Source: Pseudodesulfovibrio cashew (GTDB lineage: Bacteria > Desulfobacterota > Desulfovibrionia > Desulfovibrionales > Desulfovibrionaceae). From it: DNA of 64,000 nucleotides. The stretch spans positions 3,307,501 to 3,371,500 of the forward strand of contig NZ_CP046400.1 in the NCBI RefSeq assembly GCF_009762795.1, read 5' to 3'. The notes below the pieces were generated by a model that searched no databases, was not told where the DNA came from, and saw only the letters and a program-made list of their open reading frames with translations. Below are positions 42,641-56,876 of this stretch, in pieces (within the stretch, counting starts at the first letter, position 1; each line of letters opens with the position of its first letter). A program made the translations under genes and the position numbers.

Positions 42641-45088
42641 ATGAGCGAATCTTATCATGATAAACGCGAGGAAAGCTCTCATTCAAACAACACAGATCCT
42701 GTCTGTGGAATGGATGTCAAAAACGATGAAAACGCGCTCAAGACGTCCATTGATGGAAAAGATTATTTCTTTTGCAGCGACCATTGTTTGAAAAAATTTA
42801 CCGACAATCCCAATGAGTATATCGAGGAAAAGGCCACCCCCCTTGATCCCGAAGCTTCAACTCAAACGAATGGCTATATTTGTCCAATGCATCCTGAGGT
42901 TCGACAGAACAGTCCAGGATCATGTCCCAAGTGCGGAATGGCCCTTGAGGCAGAAATCCCTACGTCCAATGCTGTAAGATACACATGCCCTATGCATCCT
43001 GAGGTTATGCAGGACGGGCCAGGCAGTTGTCCGAAATGCGGCATGGCCTTGGAGCCAATGACCGTGGAGGCCGACGAAGAGAATCCCGAATATGACTTTA
43101 TGCGAAAACGATTCTGGATTTCAGCATTATTCTGTATTCCTCTCGTCATAATAGCAATGCGCGACATGTTGCCGGGAGGGGAATATCTTGACCATCTGGC
43201 ATCCAATGAAACGTATCACTGGTTAGAACTGGCATTGGCAACTCCCGTCGTTGCGTGGAGCGGATGGGTCTTTCACGTCCGGGCCATCCAATCCATAATG
43301 AACCGCAGCCTCAACATGTTCACCCTTATTGGCCTCGGAACTTCAGTGGCCTACATTTACAGCATCATTGCCGTACTATTCCCTGATATATTCCCCACAT
43401 CTTTCCGCGATGAATCAGGAGCAGTCGGCGTGTATTTCGAAGCCTCTGCCGTCATCATCACTCTGGTCCTCCTCGGACAGATGCTTGAACTCAAAGCTCG
43501 GGGGCAGACCAGCGCTGCCATCAAGAGCCTTCTCGGGTTGGCCCCCAAAACCGCTCGTAAAGTATCCGATGACGGTACGGAAGAAGACGTTCCTTTGGAG
43601 GAGGTGCTTGTCGGTGACAAGCTACGAGTGCGCCCCGGAGAAAAGATACCGGTAGACGGCGTCGTGATTGACGGCAACAGCAATGTGGACGAATCGATGA
43701 TTACTGGCGAACCACAACCAGTGGGCAAGACCTCGGGAGATAAGGTCGTAGGTGCTACTGTCAACGGCACAGGCTCGCTGGTCGTGGAGGCTGAAAAGGT
43801 GGGCGCTGATACACTTCTGTCCCAAATCGTCCATATGGTTTCCGAAGCCCAGCGAAGCCGTGCTCCTGTGCAAAAACTCGCCGACACTGTGGCCGGAATC
43901 TTCGTTCCGTTGGTCATCGGCGCGGCGGTAATAGCTTTCACAATCTTTGGAATTTGGGGACCAGCCCCCAAGATGGCGCACGCCATCATCGTGGCGGTAT
44001 CCGTCCTTATCATTGCATGCCCGTGCGCCCTTGGACTGGCGACGCCCGTATCGATCATGGTCGCCATGGGAAAGGGGGCCTCCGCAGGCGTGCTGTTCAA
44101 AAACGCCGAAGCGATAGAGACATTCAAGCAAGTTGATACGCTGGTTGTCGATAAGACGGGAACCCTGACGGAAGGCAAACCAAAGCTGACCAAGATGGAA
44201 GTCATTGACGGTACGGATGAGAAAACATTTCTCTCTTTGGTAGGAAGCGTTGAACGCAACAGCGAACACCCCTTGGCTGAAGCCATTGCCACAGGAGCGA
44301 AACAACGTGGAGCTGCATTCAAGGAAGTTGAGGCATTCGAATCCGTAACCGGCAAGGGGGTCGGAGCCATCGTTGCAGGCCACAAGATTCTGTTGGGCAA
44401 CAGCAGATTGATGGCTGACAACGATATCGACACTCGTGAGCTGACCCCAAAGGCCGAGACCTTGCGGAGCGAAGGGAGTACCGTCATGTTCGGTGCTGTG
44501 GATGGTAAGGCGACCGGCCTACTCTGCGTCGCAGATCCTATAAAAGAGACAACACCTCAGGCTATTGAAGCACTACATAATGAAGGACTGTACATCGTTA
44601 TGTTGACAGGAGACACGGCCACGACAGCCCAGGCTGTCGCTTCCGAGCTTGGCCTTGATGACGTCATTGCGGAAGTCCTGCCAGACGGAAAGGCCGCAAC
44701 GATAAAACGGCTTCAGGAAGAAGGTCGAACCGTTGCCATGGCTGGAGACGGTATCAACGATGCCCCCGCACTGGCGCAGGCTCATGTGGGGGTTGCCATG
44801 GGAACCGGGGCCGATGTCGCCATGGAAAGCGCAGGAGTCACTCTGGTCAAGGGTGACCTGAGAGGGATAGTCCGGGCCAGAAGGTTGAGCCAGGCGACCA
44901 TGCGAAACATCAAGCAGAACTTGTTCTTCGCATTTATATACAACGCATTGGGCATCCCCATAGCGGGCGGTGCGCTTTTCCCAATGTTCGGCATTTTTCT
45001 CAATCCCATGATTGCGGCAGCTGCCATGAGCTTCAGTTCCGTTTCTGTGATCAGCAACGCTCTGCGTTTGCGTGGCGCAAAGCTTTAA
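42641..45088 (+). CDS. Copper/silver-exporting P1B-type ATPase
   Basis: 815-residue P1B ATPase that pumps Cu+ (or Ag+) across the inner membrane. N-terminal YHS module (about 22-66, DPVCGMDV...FFCSDHC), then two heavy-metal-binding motifs [23 protein letters not shown] (about 85-110 and 117-142), eight membrane helices with the ion-site CPC (about 460-462), phosphorylated Asp in DKTGTLTEG (about 504), HPLAEA (about 543) and [10 protein letters not shown] (about 702). It lacks the usual HMA CxxC domains, the SilP/CopA2-like layout. A GGAGG ribosome site precedes the ATG. It is followed closely by the truncated kinase gene. Confidence 0.95.
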
Positions 45089-45126
45089 AGAGCGAGATTC
45101 TGTCCATGCAAGAAAAGGAGGCATCA

Positions 45127-45708
45127 GTGGTAAACCCAAAGACCATTGTGACCGCCGTATTAGTGCTTGCCATCTCGGCGTCCCACTATGTCACGGCCAT
45201 GACCGACCTGCGACCACATGTGGTTCTCAGGGAACTCTACTATCTGCCTATTATCCTGTCTGGCCTGTGGTTCGGAATGAAAGGAGGGCTAGGTGTTTCT
45301 GGACTGATCGTACTACTTTACGCACCAATGATTATACTCAACTGGTCTGATTTGGCCGCAGTTGATTTAGAGCGCATCCTGGAATGTGGATTGTTCATAA
45401 CGGTGGGCCTACTGACGGGCCTATTGCGAGACCGGGAACAAGCCAAAGAAAGCCAGCGGGCAGAACAGGTCGCCGCCTTGGCAGGCACTGTGGCTCATGA
45501 AATCAACTCTCCGCTTTTCGCAGCCTTGTCCGCTGCCCAGATGCTGGAAGAAGATTTGGAAGACCAAAGCAAAGAGGATGTTGGACTCATCATCCGTAAC
45601 TTAATGGACATCAAGGAACAAGTGCGCAAAATATCCGGCATCAAGGACGTGATCCTGCAGGATTACGCCGGAAACACACAGGTCGCCACCTTGGGTGGAG
45701 AGGAATAG
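45127..45708 (+). CDS. Membrane histidine kinase lacking an ATPase domain
   Basis: 193-residue protein with four hydrophobic helices (about 5-100; ELYYLPIILSGLWFGMKGGL) and a HisKA domain with phospho-acceptor His about 124 in TVAHEINSPLFAALS, ending right after the dimerisation helices (VRKISGIKDVILQDYAG). There is no ATP-binding domain before the stop, and a terminator follows. I chose the GTG at 45127 because AAAAGGAGG stands just before it (an ATG at 45106 is in frame). The sensor part is similar to the kinase at 46462-47457, which lacks the His. The two may form a split kinase. Confidence 0.83.
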   Translation: MVNPKTIVTAVLVLAISASHYVTAMTDLRPHVVLRELYYLPIILSGLWFGMKGGLGVSGLIVLLYAPMIILNWSDLAAVDLERILECGLFITVGLLTGLLRDREQAKESQRAEQVAALAGTVAHEINSPLFAALSAAQMLEEDLEDQSKEDVGLIIRNLMDIKEQVRKISGIKDVILQDYAGNTQVATLGGEE

Positions 45709-45751
45709 AGGCTGGATTAAAAAGGCCATTCAACTGTAAGCTAACTGGAAC

Positions 45752-45795
45752 AGTTTGGGTGGCGGCAAGCAGACTCGCCGCCACCCGAAATACGG
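45752..45795. terminator. Bidirectional hairpin terminator
   Basis: Ten-base perfect stem GGGTGGCGGC/GCCGCCACCC (45757-45766 with 45777-45786) with ten-base loop, between convergent genes. T-runs are short on both sides, so efficiency is uncertain. Confidence 0.7.
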
Positions 45796-45796
45796 G

Positions 45797-46276
45797 CTAC
45801 TTCTTCATCTTTTCCTTGTCCATCTGAGGGCCTCCCTTTGGCATCATTTCCATACCGCCGTTCATCATGCCCATGCCGCCTTTCATCATGCCCATGCCGT
45901 TCTTTCCTTCCTTCTGCATCATCATGCCGTCACGCATCATATCCATGCCACCCTTCATCATACCCATGCCGCCTTTCATCATGCCTTGCATCATGGGGTT
46001 GTCGCCGCCCATCATGCCCATCTTCTTCTGCATCATGCCCATCCCCTCATCGGCGGACTTAAGGCCTTCTTCCACATCCTTGATGCCGTCCTGGCCCTTT
46101 TCCATCATCATCATGCCTTTTTGCATCATGCCCATGCCCTTTTGCATCATCCCCATGCCTTCACTCATCATCATGCCTTTTCCGGCCTTATCCATGTCAC
46201 CCTTGGCAAACGCAGGAGCCGAAGCGAGTGCAAAAACAGCAATAATTGCGATTGTAAAAATGGACCGCATCTTCAT
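45797..46276 (-). CDS. Secreted methionine-rich protein
   Basis: 159-residue protein with a signal peptide (MKMRSIFTIAIIAVFALASA, cleavage near AFA-KG). The mature part is mostly repeats such as GMGMMQKG, MMKGGMGMMKGGM and contains about 44 Met in some 134 residues, no Cys and no His. Thioether clusters like these bind Cu+ or Ag+, so a periplasmic copper sponge or carrier is likely (inference). The frame is open to 46417, but the ATG at 46276 follows GGAGGTTAACTCA and starts the signal peptide. Confidence 0.8.
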   Translation of the reverse strand: MKMRSIFTIAIIAVFALASAPAFAKGDMDKAGKGMMMSEGMGMMQKGMGMMQKGMMMMEKGQDGIKDVEEGLKSADEGMGMMQKKMGMMGGDNPMMQGMMKGGMGMMKGGMDMMRDGMMMQKEGKNGMGMMKGGMGMMNGGMEMMPKGGPQMDKEKMKK

Positions 46277-46461
46277 TGAGTTAACCTCCGATTTGTTGAT
46301 ACCGCACCCTTCTCTCTGTCCGAACATCGGGCAGCAAGCGGATAGCGTCAAGATTAGCACATACTTCATAGAGAGGATAGGGGGGGCATAAAACTCCTGA
46401 CGCCTTTCGTGCCTCACACAATCATTACTTCAATAATTCCTGACTATTATCTCGCTATTAT

Positions 46462-47457
46462 TTAAACACAACGAGGAACGATAATAGAGAATGAGGAGCC
46501 AGCACCATGTTTACTCTTCGCCGTTATATCTCCACCCACATCGCGCATAGTTCTTTTGCAGGCAGCAAGGCTGAGGCCACTTCCCCCTTCCTTGGTGCTA
46601 TAGAATGGAGAGAACAACTTGCAGACGTTTTCCTCACTAATTCCAACGCCCTGATCATCAATCCGAAGCTCACAATGATCGCCGTGTCGACACGTCGATA
46701 CAACAACATTGTCACCGGGCTTGGATGCGTCCATTGCATTATCCAGCAGCTTCGCAAGCACCCAGGCGATAGCGGTAGAATCGACTTTTGACGGACAACC
46801 GCTTTCATCTTCCTTGACTTCCAGAGTTATATTCATGTCCCTGAACATCGGCTTATACTTTTGCACGATCTCGCCAACCGCATCGTTAAGATCAACGGTA
46901 GTAATTTGCAGAGTATCCTTGGCGGCATACCGGGTCATGGATTTTACCATATTATCCATGACGTCCAATTCCCCATTAAAATCCTGATTGAACCGAGGTA
47001 AACTCAAGCCTCCACCTCGCTCGAACAGAGTTCGTAACGCATGAAGATTATCCTTGATCTCCCAACTGAGGACCCCGACGGTCTTGCCTAACGTGCTCAA
47101 GCGCTCTGCTGCGATGAGTTCCTGATTTTTACGCCTCTGCCGGTCGGACAGCCAACCGAGCAGACCGGCCACAAAAAGGAAAATTGCAACTTGCGAAACC
47201 ATCACCGGCAGAGGCATGGAATGCGCACTATCTGTCTCCATCCCTGTCAGAAAGAGGATCGAGACAAGAATAGAAGTCCAAAGTCCAGGCTTCAGACCAA
47301 ACCAATACGCCGCCAGCAGGATTGGAATGAAAAACAATTCACGATGCAAACCATGATAGCTGAACGGACCATGAATCCCACTGAAATGCAGAACAGATGC
47401 TGCCGCGATCGTCAGGACCAATATATATTTCTTCATGCTTATCTTTCTAGAGCTCAT
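46462..47457 (-). CDS. Membrane histidine kinase with Trp in place of the phospho-His
   Basis: 331-residue protein: four hydrophobic helices (about 8-103; RELFFIPILLAAYWFGLKPG), a HisKA-like helix pair and an intact ATPase domain with N box LLDNAMDA (about 239-246), IDDQGVGISEE (about 267) and STKEGGSGLSLAACKR. The H box reads VLSWEIKDNL: Trp 132 stands where His should be. AGGAG precedes the chosen start at 47457. It follows the PepSY gene by 30 bases and is probably in its sigma-54 transcript. The sensor region resembles that of the ATPase-less kinase at 45127. Confidence 0.84.
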   Translation of the reverse strand: MSSRKISMKKYILVLTIAAASVLHFSGIHGPFSYHGLHRELFFIPILLAAYWFGLKPGLWTSILVSILFLTGMETDSAHSMPLPVMVSQVAIFLFVAGLLGWLSDRQRRKNQELIAAERLSTLGKTVGVLSWEIKDNLHALRTLFERGGGLSLPRFNQDFNGELDVMDNMVKSMTRYAAKDTLQITTVDLNDAVGEIVQKYKPMFRDMNITLEVKEDESGCPSKVDSTAIAWVLAKLLDNAMDASKPGDNVVVSTCRHGDHCELRIDDQGVGISEENVCKLFSPFYSTKEGGSGLSLAACKRTMRDVGGDITAKSKHGAGSSFSIIVPRCV

Positions 47458-47487: not shown

Positions 47488-47913
47488 TTACTGGTTAACA
47501 GACCGCACGGCCCCAGTGTTCTTTTGCACGATCAGCTTGTCGACGAGAGAACCGTCGTGTGTGACCACATCAACCATGTAATCATTTTCACGGTCTACGA
47601 CCTCTCCGATAGTAAGATTCGGATTTCGGGCGATCTGACTCTTAACGATGGATTCGGCCTGCCCAGCTGTTGAAACAGCTTGATTCTGACCGTAGTTGCC
47701 ACCAGAGGAATTCCATCCTTGATTCCCTGTCATCCCGGAGCCACTGGAACCACTCATACTACCACCGCTTCCCATCATGCCGCCAAAGGAACCGCCTTGC
47801 CCGTTCCCCTGCATACCTCCCCCCATCATGGCGAAAGAAGATGGCACGGAAACAGCCGCAGCAACGACAATAATACCCATAGCGAAAAGAATGTTTTTCA
47901 TAATATTCTGCAT
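47488..47913 (-). CDS. Secreted Gly/Met-rich protein with PepSY-like C-terminus
   Basis: 141-residue exported protein. Signal peptide (about 5-28, ending SSFA-MM), a low-complexity Gly/Met/Ser part (about 30-80), and a PepSY-like fold (about 85-141, ESIVKSQIARNPNLTIGEVV). Probably a small periplasmic protein tied to metal stress. The ATG at 47913 follows GGAG in the leader that is duplicated at 51201. A sigma-54 promoter stands upstream at 47966-47982, and the kinase gene follows on the same transcript. Confidence 0.78.
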   Translation of the reverse strand: MQNIMKNILFAMGIIVVAAAVSVPSSFAMMGGGMQGNGQGGSFGGMMGSGGSMSGSSGSGMTGNQGWNSSGGNYGQNQAVSTAGQAESIVKSQIARNPNLTIGEVVDRENDYMVDVVTHDGSLVDKLIVQKNTGAVRSVNQ

Positions 47914-47949
47914 ACAAACTCCAATGTTTGCCGATCCCTTCGGCGTTGA
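47910..47949 (-). repeat. Duplicated 40-base leader, copy 1
   Basis: 40 bases around the ribosome site and start of the PepSY gene match 38 of 40 bases at 51201-51240, the leader of the frameshifted lipoprotein gene. The likeness continues through the sigma-54 promoter upstream. Confidence 0.85.
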
Positions 47950-47965
47950 CAATGTAGATAGGCAA

Positions 47966-47982
47966 GGCAAACCGCGTGCCAA
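47966..47982 (-). promoter_or_regulatory. Sigma-54 promoter for PepSY-kinase operon
   Basis: Reads TTGGCACGCGGTTTGCC on the reverse strand, a match to the -24/-12 consensus (TTGGCAC, five bases, TTGC). It lies about 55 bases before the PepSY gene start. A candidate activator site is found 126 bases further upstream (48109-48125). Confidence 0.85.
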
Positions 47983-53708: not shown

Positions 53709-55067
53709 TTACAGCCCGTATTTCTTTAACTTATTGTTTAGAGTCGTCCTTGTGATGTCGAGTATTTTGGCCGCTTCGCTTTTGTTCCAGCCGGTCTGCT
53801 CAAGTGTTGCCAAAATGGCTATTTTTTGGACATCTTCCAAAGGCTGGCCTCCAAGTTGCCCTTTATCGGATTCGGTCTGATCGGCCTGCTCGTAATCCTT
53901 GGTCAGACTGGCAGGGAGTTCCTTTTCTGTAACATACTCGCCCATACACAGGATGATGGCGCGTTCAATCATGTTTTCCAGCTCGCGGACATTGCCAGGC
54001 CAAGAATGACGGATAAGCATATCCATAGCCAGAGGACTAAATCCCTTAACAGTTTTCCTATTCTTTTCGGCGAAGCGCTCAAGGAAAAAATTGGCCAACA
54101 GGGGGACATCATCCTGCCGTTCACGGAGAGCTGGCAATCTCAGCACCATGACATGCAACCTATAGTATAGGTCTTCGCGAAAACGGCCCGCTTCCACCTC
54201 GGCCTTGAGATCCTTATTGGTGGCGGCGAGGATGCGGACATCCACAAACTGCACAGTATCGCTACCCACCCGTTGAATTTCACGTTCCTGCACGGCACGG
54301 AGCAATTTAGCCTGCATGGGCATGGATATTTCCCCGATTTCGTCAAGGAAGATCGTTCCCTTGTTCGCCTGCATGAACCTGCCATCGCGGCGCTTGTCCG
54401 CTCCGGTAAACGCTCCTTTTTCGTGACCGAACAGTTCCGACTCCAGAAGCGTCTCTGAAAGTGCGGCGCAGTTGATCGTCACGAGTTGCTTCTTTTTTCG
54501 GGCGCTGGTTGCGTGAATCGCCCGGGCAATCAGTTCCTTGCCTGTCCCGGATTCTCCGGTAATCAGAACCGTGGCTTCCGTGGGCGCTACTACCTTGACC
54601 ATATCAATGACGTCCCGCATGGCAGAGCTGGTCCCGATGATGCCGGTGAGAGATTGTCCGGCGGAGACGGTTTCCTTGAGGTGGCGGTTCTCTTCGGACA
54701 ATCGCTTATGGTCGAGGGCACGCTCCAGAGTTATCTTGAGTTCGTCAAAATTGAGGGGCTTCGTCAGGTAATCATAGGCTCCGAGCTTCATAGCTTCGAC
54801 CGCCACGTCAACGGATGAATACGCCGTCATTATGAGTACGGGAATGGCCGGGTTGAACGCCTTGATCTCTTCCAGCGCTTCAATGCCACTGACTTTTGCC
54901 ATGCGAACATCCATGAGCACCGTGTCATACGGATTCTCCTTGACAGCCGCGACCGCCTCGCCTCCATCCATCGCGGACGCTGTTTCATATCCCCAACCGC
55001 CAAGGATGGTTTCGAGCATCGACAGGTGCCCTTTGTCGTCGTCGACAATGAGTATATTGGTCTTCAT
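53709..55067 (-). CDS. Sigma-54-dependent response regulator (ZraR/NtrC family)
   Basis: 452-residue activator. Receiver domain (about 1-120) with VDDDKGH, phospho-Asp in TVLMDVRMAKVSG and Lys in YLTKPLNF; AAA+ domain (about 140-370) with Walker A GESGTGKELIARAIH, sigma-54-contacting GAFTGADKRRDG and Walker B GTIFLDEIGEIS; C-terminal Fis-type helix-turn-helix (about 405-450, WNKSEAAKILDITRTTLNNKL). It starts 12 bases after the kinase gene upstream and is the likely activator of the three sigma-54 promoters in the island. Confidence 0.95.
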   Translation of the reverse strand: MKTNILIVDDDKGHLSMLETILGGWGYETASAMDGGEAVAAVKENPYDTVLMDVRMAKVSGIEALEEIKAFNPAIPVLIMTAYSSVDVAVEAMKLGAYDYLTKPLNFDELKITLERALDHKRLSEENRHLKETVSAGQSLTGIIGTSSAMRDVIDMVKVVAPTEATVLITGESGTGKELIARAIHATSARKKKQLVTINCAALSETLLESELFGHEKGAFTGADKRRDGRFMQANKGTIFLDEIGEISMPMQAKLLRAVQEREIQRVGSDTVQFVDVRILAATNKDLKAEVEAGRFREDLYYRLHVMVLRLPALRERQDDVPLLANFFLERFAEKNRKTVKGFSPLAMDMLIRHSWPGNVRELENMIERAIILCMGEYVTEKELPASLTKDYEQADQTESDKGQLGGQPLEDVQKIAILATLEQTGWNKSEAAKILDITRTTLNNKLKKYGL

Positions 55068-55079
55068 GATTGCAAGCCT

Positions 55080-56855
55080 TTATGTGGATTGAGGTAATGA
55101 GATGGTGAAAGTCGTCCCGTTGCCGACGGAACTTGCAAAATCGACGTATCCGCCGTGCCCTTCAACTATCTTACGGACAACGGCGAGGCCGAGTCCCGTC
55201 CCCTGGCTTTTGGTCGTAAAATAGGGATCAAATACAGTAGCCATGTTTTCTTCGGCGATACCGTGTCCTGTGTCCTCAACCTGGATGATCAGGTCCGTAT
55301 CGGATTTCAGGACTCTCAAGGTCAACCGACCTCCGGCATCCATGGCCTGAATGGCGTTTATTCCCATGTTCAACAGTGCCTGAATCATGCGGTCGGCATC
55401 CAGCTTTACGGGTGGGAGATCAGACTGTACGTCGATTACGACTTCGATCCCGAGGTCCGTCGCATCCTGCTGGAATAGACGAGAGACTGTGTCCATGACA
55501 AAGGCCATGTCCACTTCCTTCGGGCTGATCTCAGAAGGACGAGAAAAATCGAGCAGTTCGGATATAACGCGGTTTAGTCGTTCTGTTTCGGCAATCATGA
55601 CCATTGCGGCTTTCCGATTGTCACTGTCTTCGTCAAACAGTCCGGCGAAGTAGGTCGCGTAGCCCTTGATACTGCTGAGTGGGTTGCGAACTTCATGCGC
55701 GATACCTGCTGCGAGATTGCCGATGGCGGCCATCTTCTCCCGCTGCTTCATTTCCGCCTGGAGTCTGTGGATTTCTGTCAGGTCACTCAGAATAAATATT
55801 GCACCAAGCGACAAACCTTCATCGGAAACAACCTGTGCGACACCGATATTGCCTGGGAAGCACTTGTCGCCTGAACTGACTTGCAACTCCTTGGTAATAG
55901 GCCCTTTCATCCCGGATGACTCCGATGCCAGTTCTACGATTGCAGCGGGAAGCACATCGTTCACATTCTGATGCAAAGCTATTTCAGCCTCAACGCCAAG
56001 CAATGATGCCGCATCACCATTGATATGGGTAACGATATCATCCGGACCGGTCACAACGAGGCCGATGGGGAGATGTGCGACGATCTCTGAAGCGAAGATT
56101 TGCGAATCCTTCAACTGCTGACGTGACCTCCGATATGCCTGAACCCAGAAGAGTGAAATCATGCAGCCAAGGCCCACGAGCAAAAGAACACCCGAAGTCA
56201 TGATCATTACCCTGACGTCGGTTTGGCGCGCCTCGATAAAGGGCTCGGTATCAAGACCAATAAAGATCAGCGGCCTGTCTACGGTTTTGCCGGCAGTCTC
56301 GGCTCCGTTCATCCCCCAACGAGTGTTTTCGGCCCTCTCTTGGGCTCCCATCATGTGGTGCCCCATCATTTGGTGCATCATTCTGGAGCCACCGGTTCCG
56401 AGAGAAACGAACTCTTTATAGACGACGAAAGAATCGGCTTGATCTCCGTCCTCCATGATCATCCACCGGGCCTGTTGGCCTGGGGACATGGCCCTTATTT
56501 GGTCAGAGCCAAGATATGTGCTGCCTATCTTTGCTTCGTCATTGTGGGCGATCACCCGCCCTTCGCGGTCCGTCAAGAGAATGAATCGTATGTCCGGCAG
56601 TTCAGCGGTCGCGTCAATCAGTGCTTGGAGCCTGTCCTGTGCACCATAGCTTCCCATCATGCCCGCACGCGCCCCAGCTTCGAAAGATCTAATCAGTGCC
56701 TCGCCTTTTTCGCCGAGCACCTTCTCCATATCGCGAACTTCACGATTGTAGTTGAACACGGCAAGAGCACCAACCACCAAAGTCATGATGACGGCCATGC
56801 CCAGAACCATCCAGACAGGCGCAGAACTTCCCAATAGTCTTCTATTCAATGACAT
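55080..56855 (-). CDS. Membrane sensor histidine kinase (ZraS-like)
   Basis: 591-residue sensor kinase. Helix about 12-34, periplasmic domain (about 35-180) with a Met/His-rich patch MMHQMMGHHMMG (about 160-171), second helix about 200-220, PAS domain (about 240-350), HisKA with His in GIAHEVRNPLSSIKGY (about 385), and ATPase domain with NMGINAIQAM, EDTGHGI and TKSQGTGLGLAV. The Met/His patch is a likely soft-metal site (inference). GGGAG precedes the ATG at 56855. Upstream partner of the sigma-54 regulator; divergent from the ZraP-like gene. Confidence 0.93.
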   Translation of the reverse strand: MSLNRRLLGSSAPVWMVLGMAVIMTLVVGALAVFNYNREVRDMEKVLGEKGEALIRSFEAGARAGMMGSYGAQDRLQALIDATAELPDIRFILLTDREGRVIAHNDEAKIGSTYLGSDQIRAMSPGQQARWMIMEDGDQADSFVVYKEFVSLGTGGSRMMHQMMGHHMMGAQERAENTRWGMNGAETAGKTVDRPLIFIGLDTEPFIEARQTDVRVMIMTSGVLLLVGLGCMISLFWVQAYRRSRQQLKDSQIFASEIVAHLPIGLVVTGPDDIVTHINGDAASLLGVEAEIALHQNVNDVLPAAIVELASESSGMKGPITKELQVSSGDKCFPGNIGVAQVVSDEGLSLGAIFILSDLTEIHRLQAEMKQREKMAAIGNLAAGIAHEVRNPLSSIKGYATYFAGLFDEDSDNRKAAMVMIAETERLNRVISELLDFSRPSEISPKEVDMAFVMDTVSRLFQQDATDLGIEVVIDVQSDLPPVKLDADRMIQALLNMGINAIQAMDAGGRLTLRVLKSDTDLIIQVEDTGHGIAEENMATVFDPYFTTKSQGTGLGLAVVRKIVEGHGGYVDFASSVGNGTTFTISLPQST

Positions 56856-56876
56856 ACGACTCCCGCAGGACAAAAA

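Follow-up and report, generated by a model that had tools for sequence, protein, structure and literature searches.

A 64,000-nucleotide stretch of Pseudodesulfovibrio cashew DNA (contig NZ_CP046400.1; the window) raises the question of how two sensor proteins, each missing what the other possesses, might serve two-component signaling. Within a copper island, a gene for a Met-rich protein is flanked, as a first-pass annotation of the window pointed out, by genes for two incomplete histidine kinases (HKs): one of 193 residues with a HisKA phospho-acceptor domain and no ATPase (the short protein), and one of 331 residues with a complete ATPase domain and Trp (TGG) in place of the acceptor His (the long protein). 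In Mycobacterium tuberculosis, an ATPase-bearing and a His-bearing protein (Rv0600c/Rv0601c) are encoded side by side. The first-pass annotation proposed that the short and long proteins heterodimerize as a split kinase or that the Trp protein is a nucleotide-gated decoy. The explanation favored here, which we hold with somewhat better than even confidence, is that a long membrane pseudo-histidine kinase and a short HisKA-only protein are separately inherited two-component accessories brought together in one copper island. Each incomplete kinase represents a conserved family and not a broken gene, and because members of one family are mostly found without members of the other, the two are probably distinct sensors in accessory roles and not two parts of a single enzyme.

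Both domains of the short protein, DUF4118 (31.3 bits) and HisKA (29.1 bits; HisKA cut-off 26.9), score above their Pfam cut-offs, whereas no HATPase was matched in the same search. The acceptor His, encoded by CAT at 45496-45498 within the motif VAHEINSP, is present, as in a HisKA phospho-acceptor. A truncated full kinase with leftover ATPase sequence downstream was considered and rejected, as no remnant was detected behind the gene with the long-family profile in three forward frames (best E 0.71). Translation from the GTG at 45127, which has GGAGG ahead of it, gives 193 residues, and an alternative ATG at 45106 gives 200; three close homologues measure 192-194 residues. The AlphaFold2 model (200-residue numbering; mean pLDDT 81.9) consists of membrane helices and a dimerization and histidine phosphotransfer (DHp) hairpin (residues 85-150/154-187), with a tail (residues 187-200) modeled at low confidence. 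The missing ATPase stands out from chance: HisKA matches number 72 in the genome, 69 of them above the cut-off; two lack a downstream HATPase, and of these two only that of the short protein exceeds the cut-off.

Homologues of the short protein were found in metagenomes, at 17 loci of a scan of genome contigs (L013-L029, 12 of them titled Desulfobulbaceae or Desulfobulbus), and in four more genomes from genome searches (G016, G301, G478, and G791). All 33 proteins checked, including that of the window, keep the motif H-E-x-N-[ST]-P, with the C terminus 68-90 residues past the His; L029, a C-terminal piece of 106 residues, was counted as short-bearing and left out of the 33. The nearest relatives (80, 77, and 59% identical) lie on small metagenome contigs of unread context, so that within the window's own clade the pairing of short and long genes may have become fixed. 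A plasmid search returned one record, a Pelobacter propionicus plasmid, whose single sensor-ATPase gene was matched by both queries. A second HisKA-only class was also observed, soluble proteins of about 552 residues that appear by eye to have a GAF-GAF-PAS-like architecture, with a DHp domain and tail resembling those of the short protein. Its genes (L037:8609-10267, L039:8621-10279, and L046:8609-10267) have a full kinase and a receiver nearby, and akin matches occur in many of the loci L037-L090.

The long gene starts at the ATG at 47457, and the H box of its product reads SWEIKDN. HATPase_c is the best Pfam match (77 bits), HisKA goes unrecognized in the Pfam search, and in NCBIfam the protein matches HisKA-type sensor kinases best. 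The model resembles a standard HK with four transmembrane (TM) helices, a DHp hairpin, and an ATP-binding (CA) domain (mean pLDDT 81.9, pTM 0.47); ZraS, HK853, and YycG lead its structure matches, with the DivL structure 4q20 at rank 15. Model and alignment agree that the DHp-CA fold is retained together with the N, G1, F, and G2 motifs. The DHp hairpin sets the model apart from anti-sigma GHKL Ser kinases of the RsbW/SpoIIAB type, whose family is absent from the Pfam matches of the protein. The similarity between the sensors of the two proteins that had been noticed in the first pass reflects homology (29% identity over residues 9-133, E 7e-10), and a search of the 3.9-Mb genome with the long protein gave 71 matches, of which that of the short protein alone covers the sensor.

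In the orthologues of the long protein the loss of the acceptor His is conserved, as expected of a pseudo-histidine kinase. The acceptor position in 55 long-family rows holds Phe (25), Trp (9), Leu (6), His (6), Val (4), Gly (3), Ile (1), or Ser (1), so that the His is absent from 49 rows; that the family never has His is ruled out by the remaining six (L108, L110, L112, L161, L164, and L166). On the long-family tree, the Trp type forms a single clade (support 100/100), with Trp in all nine of its distinct proteins, and the His state changes at least four times, corresponding to six losses if His was never regained. Although three base changes do separate a His codon from TGG, as the first-pass annotation counted, a direct step between them is not implied, since the site is Phe, Leu, Gly, Val, Ile, or Ser in relatives. 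Throughout, the ATP site has been kept: none of the 55 rows departs from N240, D268, G270, G292, G294, and G309. Mean pairwise identity of DHp helix 1 is 0.41 among the His-less rows, 0.41 among the six His rows, and 0.70 among seven full kinases with the same sensor, and the corresponding values for the CA domain are 0.45, 0.50, and 0.43, a rough comparison given the few full kinases and the unequal depth of the groups. The H-box Pro is missing even from the six His-bearing rows. Position +4 of the H box is Asp or Glu in 48 of the 49 His-less rows and Thr or Ala in the seven full kinases. In HisKA kinases this residue belongs to the phosphatase motif, and thus both sides of the H box appear, from the alignment, to have been given up while ATP binding was kept. 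The tree left out fragments P0026 and P0027, the duplicates L107 and L136-L138, L114 and L115 (the same protein as L113), and seven of 14 full kinases; near-identical pairs such as P0016/L155 and P0050/L158 were kept, and the rows are therefore not independent.

Two Cys residues that may form a metal or redox site lie in the ATPase domain of the long family, Cys221 in 54 and Cys262 in 49 of the 55 rows; among the seven full kinases, one has Cys at position 221. As an invariant hallmark of the family the two Cys held in 28 proteins and were broken by the 55-row sampling.

The distribution of the two families is incompatible with an obligate pair. The long family is present in 15 of the 288 genomes searched from the window's family, in 14 of 257 of the order of G667 (the genome of L014, titled Desulfobulbaceae), and in one of 395 of the phylum, far under the proportion in that one order, which indicates that sampling and the limit on candidates weigh heavily on these counts (seven, eight, and five candidates were scored per genome, respectively). 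The 14 remain from 16 genomes after removal of L169 and L170, which are full kinases, and include one outlier, G843 (L168), with Ser at the acceptor site, neither Cys, and a long branch. The short family, sought in 80 genomes of the G667 order (the 16 with a long match and 64 others of the 257, with up to 39 candidates scored), is missing from 13 of the 14 long-bearing genomes there, from 14 of 15 in the window's family, and from 27 of 29 overall. All candidates were scored in the 14 negative genomes of the window's family, and G649, G651, and G658, of the same Trp type, hold no short-family gene. Conversely, the long family was not found in 20 of the 22 genomes that bear the short one. A search of these 20 with the long profile, in which all candidates were scored, gave 15 matches in seven genomes at E<=1e-40, none at long-family scores; 11 cover the sensor, all with an intact His, and four (L151-L154) comprise the kinase core only. 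Elsewhere, 7-15 candidates were scored per genome, and some absences could be misses; the genome searches are samples of species representatives, and many short-bearing ones are metagenome-assembled genomes (MAGs).

Both families occur together in two of the 29 long-bearing and two of the 22 short-bearing genomes, namely the window's genome and G791. Among genomes searched for both, the short family is found in two of 29 long-positive and one of 261 long-negative genomes; with the window's genome left out, the comparison is one of 28 versus one of 261, too few for a clear association. The copper island of G791 has a gene ensemble much like that of the window, including CzcCBA-like, SpoIIE, HK, regulator, copper ATPase, multicopper oxidase, and CopB homologues. 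Together with the co-occurrence counts, this indicates that the association is with the island, not clearly between the short and long proteins. The first-pass annotation had suggested searching other copper islands for the same pairing, whose absence from other genomes was to count against a split kinase; the pairing does recur, in that one genome.

The sensor tree gives a similar picture of separate histories. The long family forms one side of a branch supported at 100/98, and full kinases are the group with which the short family clusters (the tree omits the long-family L111, the full kinases L024 and L022, the short-family L140, and three fusions to Usp-like domains). These separate sensor clades rule out that the two genes arose recently by division of a single ancestral kinase. 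Full kinases with the same sensor and an intact H box are present in seven of 20 short-bearing genomes; the distance from the short gene is 1.1 kb in L022, 1.3 kb in L024, 6.8 kb in L017, and 33 kb in G016. None was found at E<=1e-40 in the other 13, many of them MAGs, or in the window's genome in a search with the long protein.

The features of the island that bear on these proteins are collected in Table 1.

Table 1. Coordinates of the two incomplete kinases and of neighboring genes in the window.
Feature	Position	Strand	Basis and remarks
Copper P-type ATPase gene, directly upstream of short gene	42641..45088	+	ORF list, Pfam; likely one operon
Short protein: 4-TM DUF4118-type sensor and HisKA, no ATPase, 193 residues	45127..45708	+	ORF list, Pfam, model
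HisKA of short protein	45475..45633 (genome G000:3352975-3353133)	+	30.7 bits in genome search, above cut-off
Met-rich protein gene between short and long genes, downstream of long gene; signal peptide by eye	45797..46279	-	ORF list; no Pfam family
Long protein: 4-TM sensor, degenerate DHp, intact ATP-binding (CA) domain, 331 residues	46462..47457	-	ORF list, Pfam, alignment, model
HATPase_c of long protein	46474..46782	-	78.6 bits in genome search
TGG, Trp132 at phospho-acceptor position of long protein	47062..47064	-	Sequence; aligned position
Small ORF directly upstream of long gene	47488..47982	-	ORF list; no Pfam family
HAMP-SpoIIE (PP2C-type) phosphatase with Met-rich loop	51436..53550	-	Pfam; homologues near long gene in G649, G651, G658
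NtrC-type sigma-54 response regulator	53709..55067	-	Pfam; homologues at other loci
Complete sensor kinase: sCache, PAS (below cut-off), HisKA, HATPase	55080..56873	-	Pfam; homologues at other loci

On the side of the short gene, the copper ATPase stop lies 17 bases (ATG start) or 38 bases (GTG start) away on the same strand. Among 20 other short-gene loci that were read (L013-L029, L120, L139, and L140; many are short contigs), a copper-ATPase homologue is found at nine (L015, L017, L018, L019, L024, L025, L026, L139, and L140), joined by multicopper oxidase and CopB homologues at L018, L025, L026, and L140. The long gene, in turn, has HK, regulator, and SpoIIE homologues near it in all four Trp-type genomes whose surroundings were analyzed (the window and L136-L138), and a 36.7% identical relative of the small upstream ORF occupies the same position in G658. 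Five distinct Leu-type proteins occur in the window's family (L109, L111, L113 with its copies L114 and L115, L116, and L118), and all except L116 have a Ser/Thr kinase, recognized by eye, nearby, with a PP2C phosphatase (by eye) also near L113-L115 and L118.

Several further observations concern this neighborhood. The Ser/Thr kinase genes lie near long-family genes at L109:9195-11159, L111:9311-11275, L113:2022-4802, and L118:4976-7498 and near short-family genes at L014:1103-3690, L016:388-3104, and L020:2122-4759; at five of these seven loci a PP2C phosphatase accompanies the kinase. The sensor part of the SpoIIE phosphatase of the window holds a Met-rich run (MMPMRMGMGMRRF), as if a Ser/Thr phosphatase sensed copper, and this phosphatase has homologues close to the long gene in L136, L137, and L138 and beside the short gene in L120. 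Finally, a 4-TM sensor of the same kind is fused to a domain that by eye resembles universal stress proteins (Usp), near the long gene in L113 (171-992) and near the short gene in L120 (7573-8421) and L017 (15928-16773).

A model can be drawn from these data in which the activities, the partners, and copper as the signal are all inferred. The long protein is best read as a member of the island's HK-regulator-SpoIIE module. Having lost the acceptor His and the H-box Pro and kept a complete-looking ATP site, it would most likely use ATP binding to set its conformation and act by ATP-dependent dimerization or docking, in keeping with the nucleotide-gated decoy of the first-pass annotation, which the sequence evidence on an intact ATP site fits. 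Its docking targets would be the island's complete kinase and the adjoining regulator, much as DivL acts via CckA and DivK. The short protein, on the other hand, is best read as a HisKA-only accessory that belongs to the copper-ATPase/multicopper-oxidase module. Since autophosphorylation is beyond it, it most likely serves a complete kinase or the cognate regulator as acceptor, phosphatase, or docking subunit. A full kinase is the likelier source of its phosphate, because same-sensor kinases occur in seven of 20 short-bearing genomes and within 1.1-6.8 kb in three. In the window's genome, the nearest candidate sources are the complete kinase, a candidate partner of both incomplete kinases, and the long protein, with which the short protein could still heterodimerize.

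In Caulobacter DivL, as described in PMC4211667, the acceptor His is replaced by Tyr (once Ala), the N, G1, F, and G2 boxes stay, and ATP is bound weakly (57 uM for TNP-ATP). The long family shares with DivL, as portrayed there, the replaced His and the retained boxes and HK fold. It differs from that account of DivL, with PAS domains, a conserved Pro555, and weak ATP binding, in its 4-TM sensor, absent Pro, acid at +4, and location mostly near metal-resistance genes. Streptococcus RocA is reported to be a membrane kinase-like protein that acts without autophosphorylation through the complete kinase CovS (PMC7028121), a kind of partner that is only proposed for the long protein; according to that report, RocA keeps a dispensable His and has a CA domain without several key residues, the reverse of the Trp-type long protein. 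Split kinases are established by CheA3/CheA4 of Rhodobacter sphaeroides (PMC3591291), in which, as in the short and long proteins, acceptor and ATPase reside on separate polypeptides. As presented in that source, however, these are chemotaxis proteins that need each other, whereas the short and long proteins are membrane sensors found mostly apart. Two-hybrid tests are reported to indicate that Synechocystis Hik36 and Hik43 likewise make one kinase jointly (PMC7656254), but with HPT on one protein and CheA-like parts on the other, and the passages of that report on the pair name no shared membrane sensor. One survey, cited with PMC3591291 and PMC7656254, puts potentially split and bifunctional HKs at up to 1.7%.

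Several points weigh against separate accessories. The two genes lie only about 0.75 kb apart, both within 2.3 kb; the short gene encodes the genome's sole HisKA above the cut-off without an ATPase, as well as the long protein's only sensor relative; and G791, a distant genome from another order, carries both genes in one copper island, 33 kb apart. Moreover, the long family is not uniformly pseudo-kinase, because six rows keep the His; DivL is no precedent for an ATP-gated mode because it binds ATP weakly; and neighborhood does not prove partnership. One rival, favored by the adjacency, the sole sensor relative, and the shared island of G791, is the split kinase of the first-pass annotation, a heterodimer through the related membrane and DHp domains in which the long ATPase would phosphorylate the short His in trans, and that His would then hand the phosphate to a regulator. 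Its anatomy fits, in that the losses are exactly complementary, with full CA motifs in one protein and a full H box in the other, encoded by adjacent genes, and CheA3/CheA4 and Hik36-Hik43, as reported, provide precedents. Nevertheless, we regard it as unlikely: obligate pairing fails on the distribution even within the Trp type, the genes are on opposite strands, the sensors belong to separate clades, and the counts without the window's genome are too small for clear association. A broader version, which we judge distinctly unlikely, would make the long family a general catalytic-only subunit that has repeatedly lost its His and phosphorylates other copper-island membrane DHp proteins in trans. 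Its client here and in G791 would be the short protein, giving a membrane split kinase from two operons of different history, each half sensing its own signal.

Alternatively, the short protein may heterodimerize with a complete kinase (a same-sensor kinase or, failing that, the one in the window), which would phosphorylate its His, with the long protein uninvolved. This possibility, to which we give clearly less than even odds, is a sharper form of the favored reading of the short protein and does not exclude it. It is consistent with the same-sensor kinases with intact H boxes, close by in several genomes, with the grouping of short sensors with such kinases on the tree, and with known kinase heterodimers such as RetS-GacS (as described in PMC12189002), but 13 of 20 short-bearing genomes, many of them MAGs, and the window's genome itself lack a same-sensor full kinase. 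Partner-switch logic, in which the long protein would act as a GHKL-type Ser/Thr kinase and the SpoIIE or PP2C phosphatase often found nearby would take the phosphate off again, seems quite improbable. Phosphatases of this class surround the long gene in the window, L136-L138, L110, L113-L115, L117, and L118 (recognized by BLAST to the window's SpoIIE or, for PP2C, by eye), and Ser/Thr kinases (by eye) are near it in L109, L111, L113-L115, and L118; against this, no such gene was recognized in the stretches of L107, L108, L112, and L116, the long protein retains a full two-helix DHp, its top NCBIfam matches are of the HisKA type, the anti-sigma kinase family is absent from its Pfam matches, and no substrate was seen. 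Decay of one or both genes would explain why each protein lost a catalytic residue or domain, but lengths and motifs are conserved across many genomes, with the ATP site invariant in 55 rows and the His in 33 short proteins; this idea is already largely refuted by conservation, and we consider it very improbable.

What is new, then, is two variants, the short and long families, and not a new kind of system; among the records listed by literature searches, including those on copper resistance in sulfate reducers, no title or abstract dealt with either. The known pseudo-histidine kinases DivL and RocA are single cases, whereas in the long family the His changes several times and the ATP site stays, which provides a natural experiment on what the HK ATPase does without autophosphorylation. 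The HisKA-only short family poses the mirror question. Both families are found largely in metal-resistance islands, where copper tolerance offers an easy read-out.

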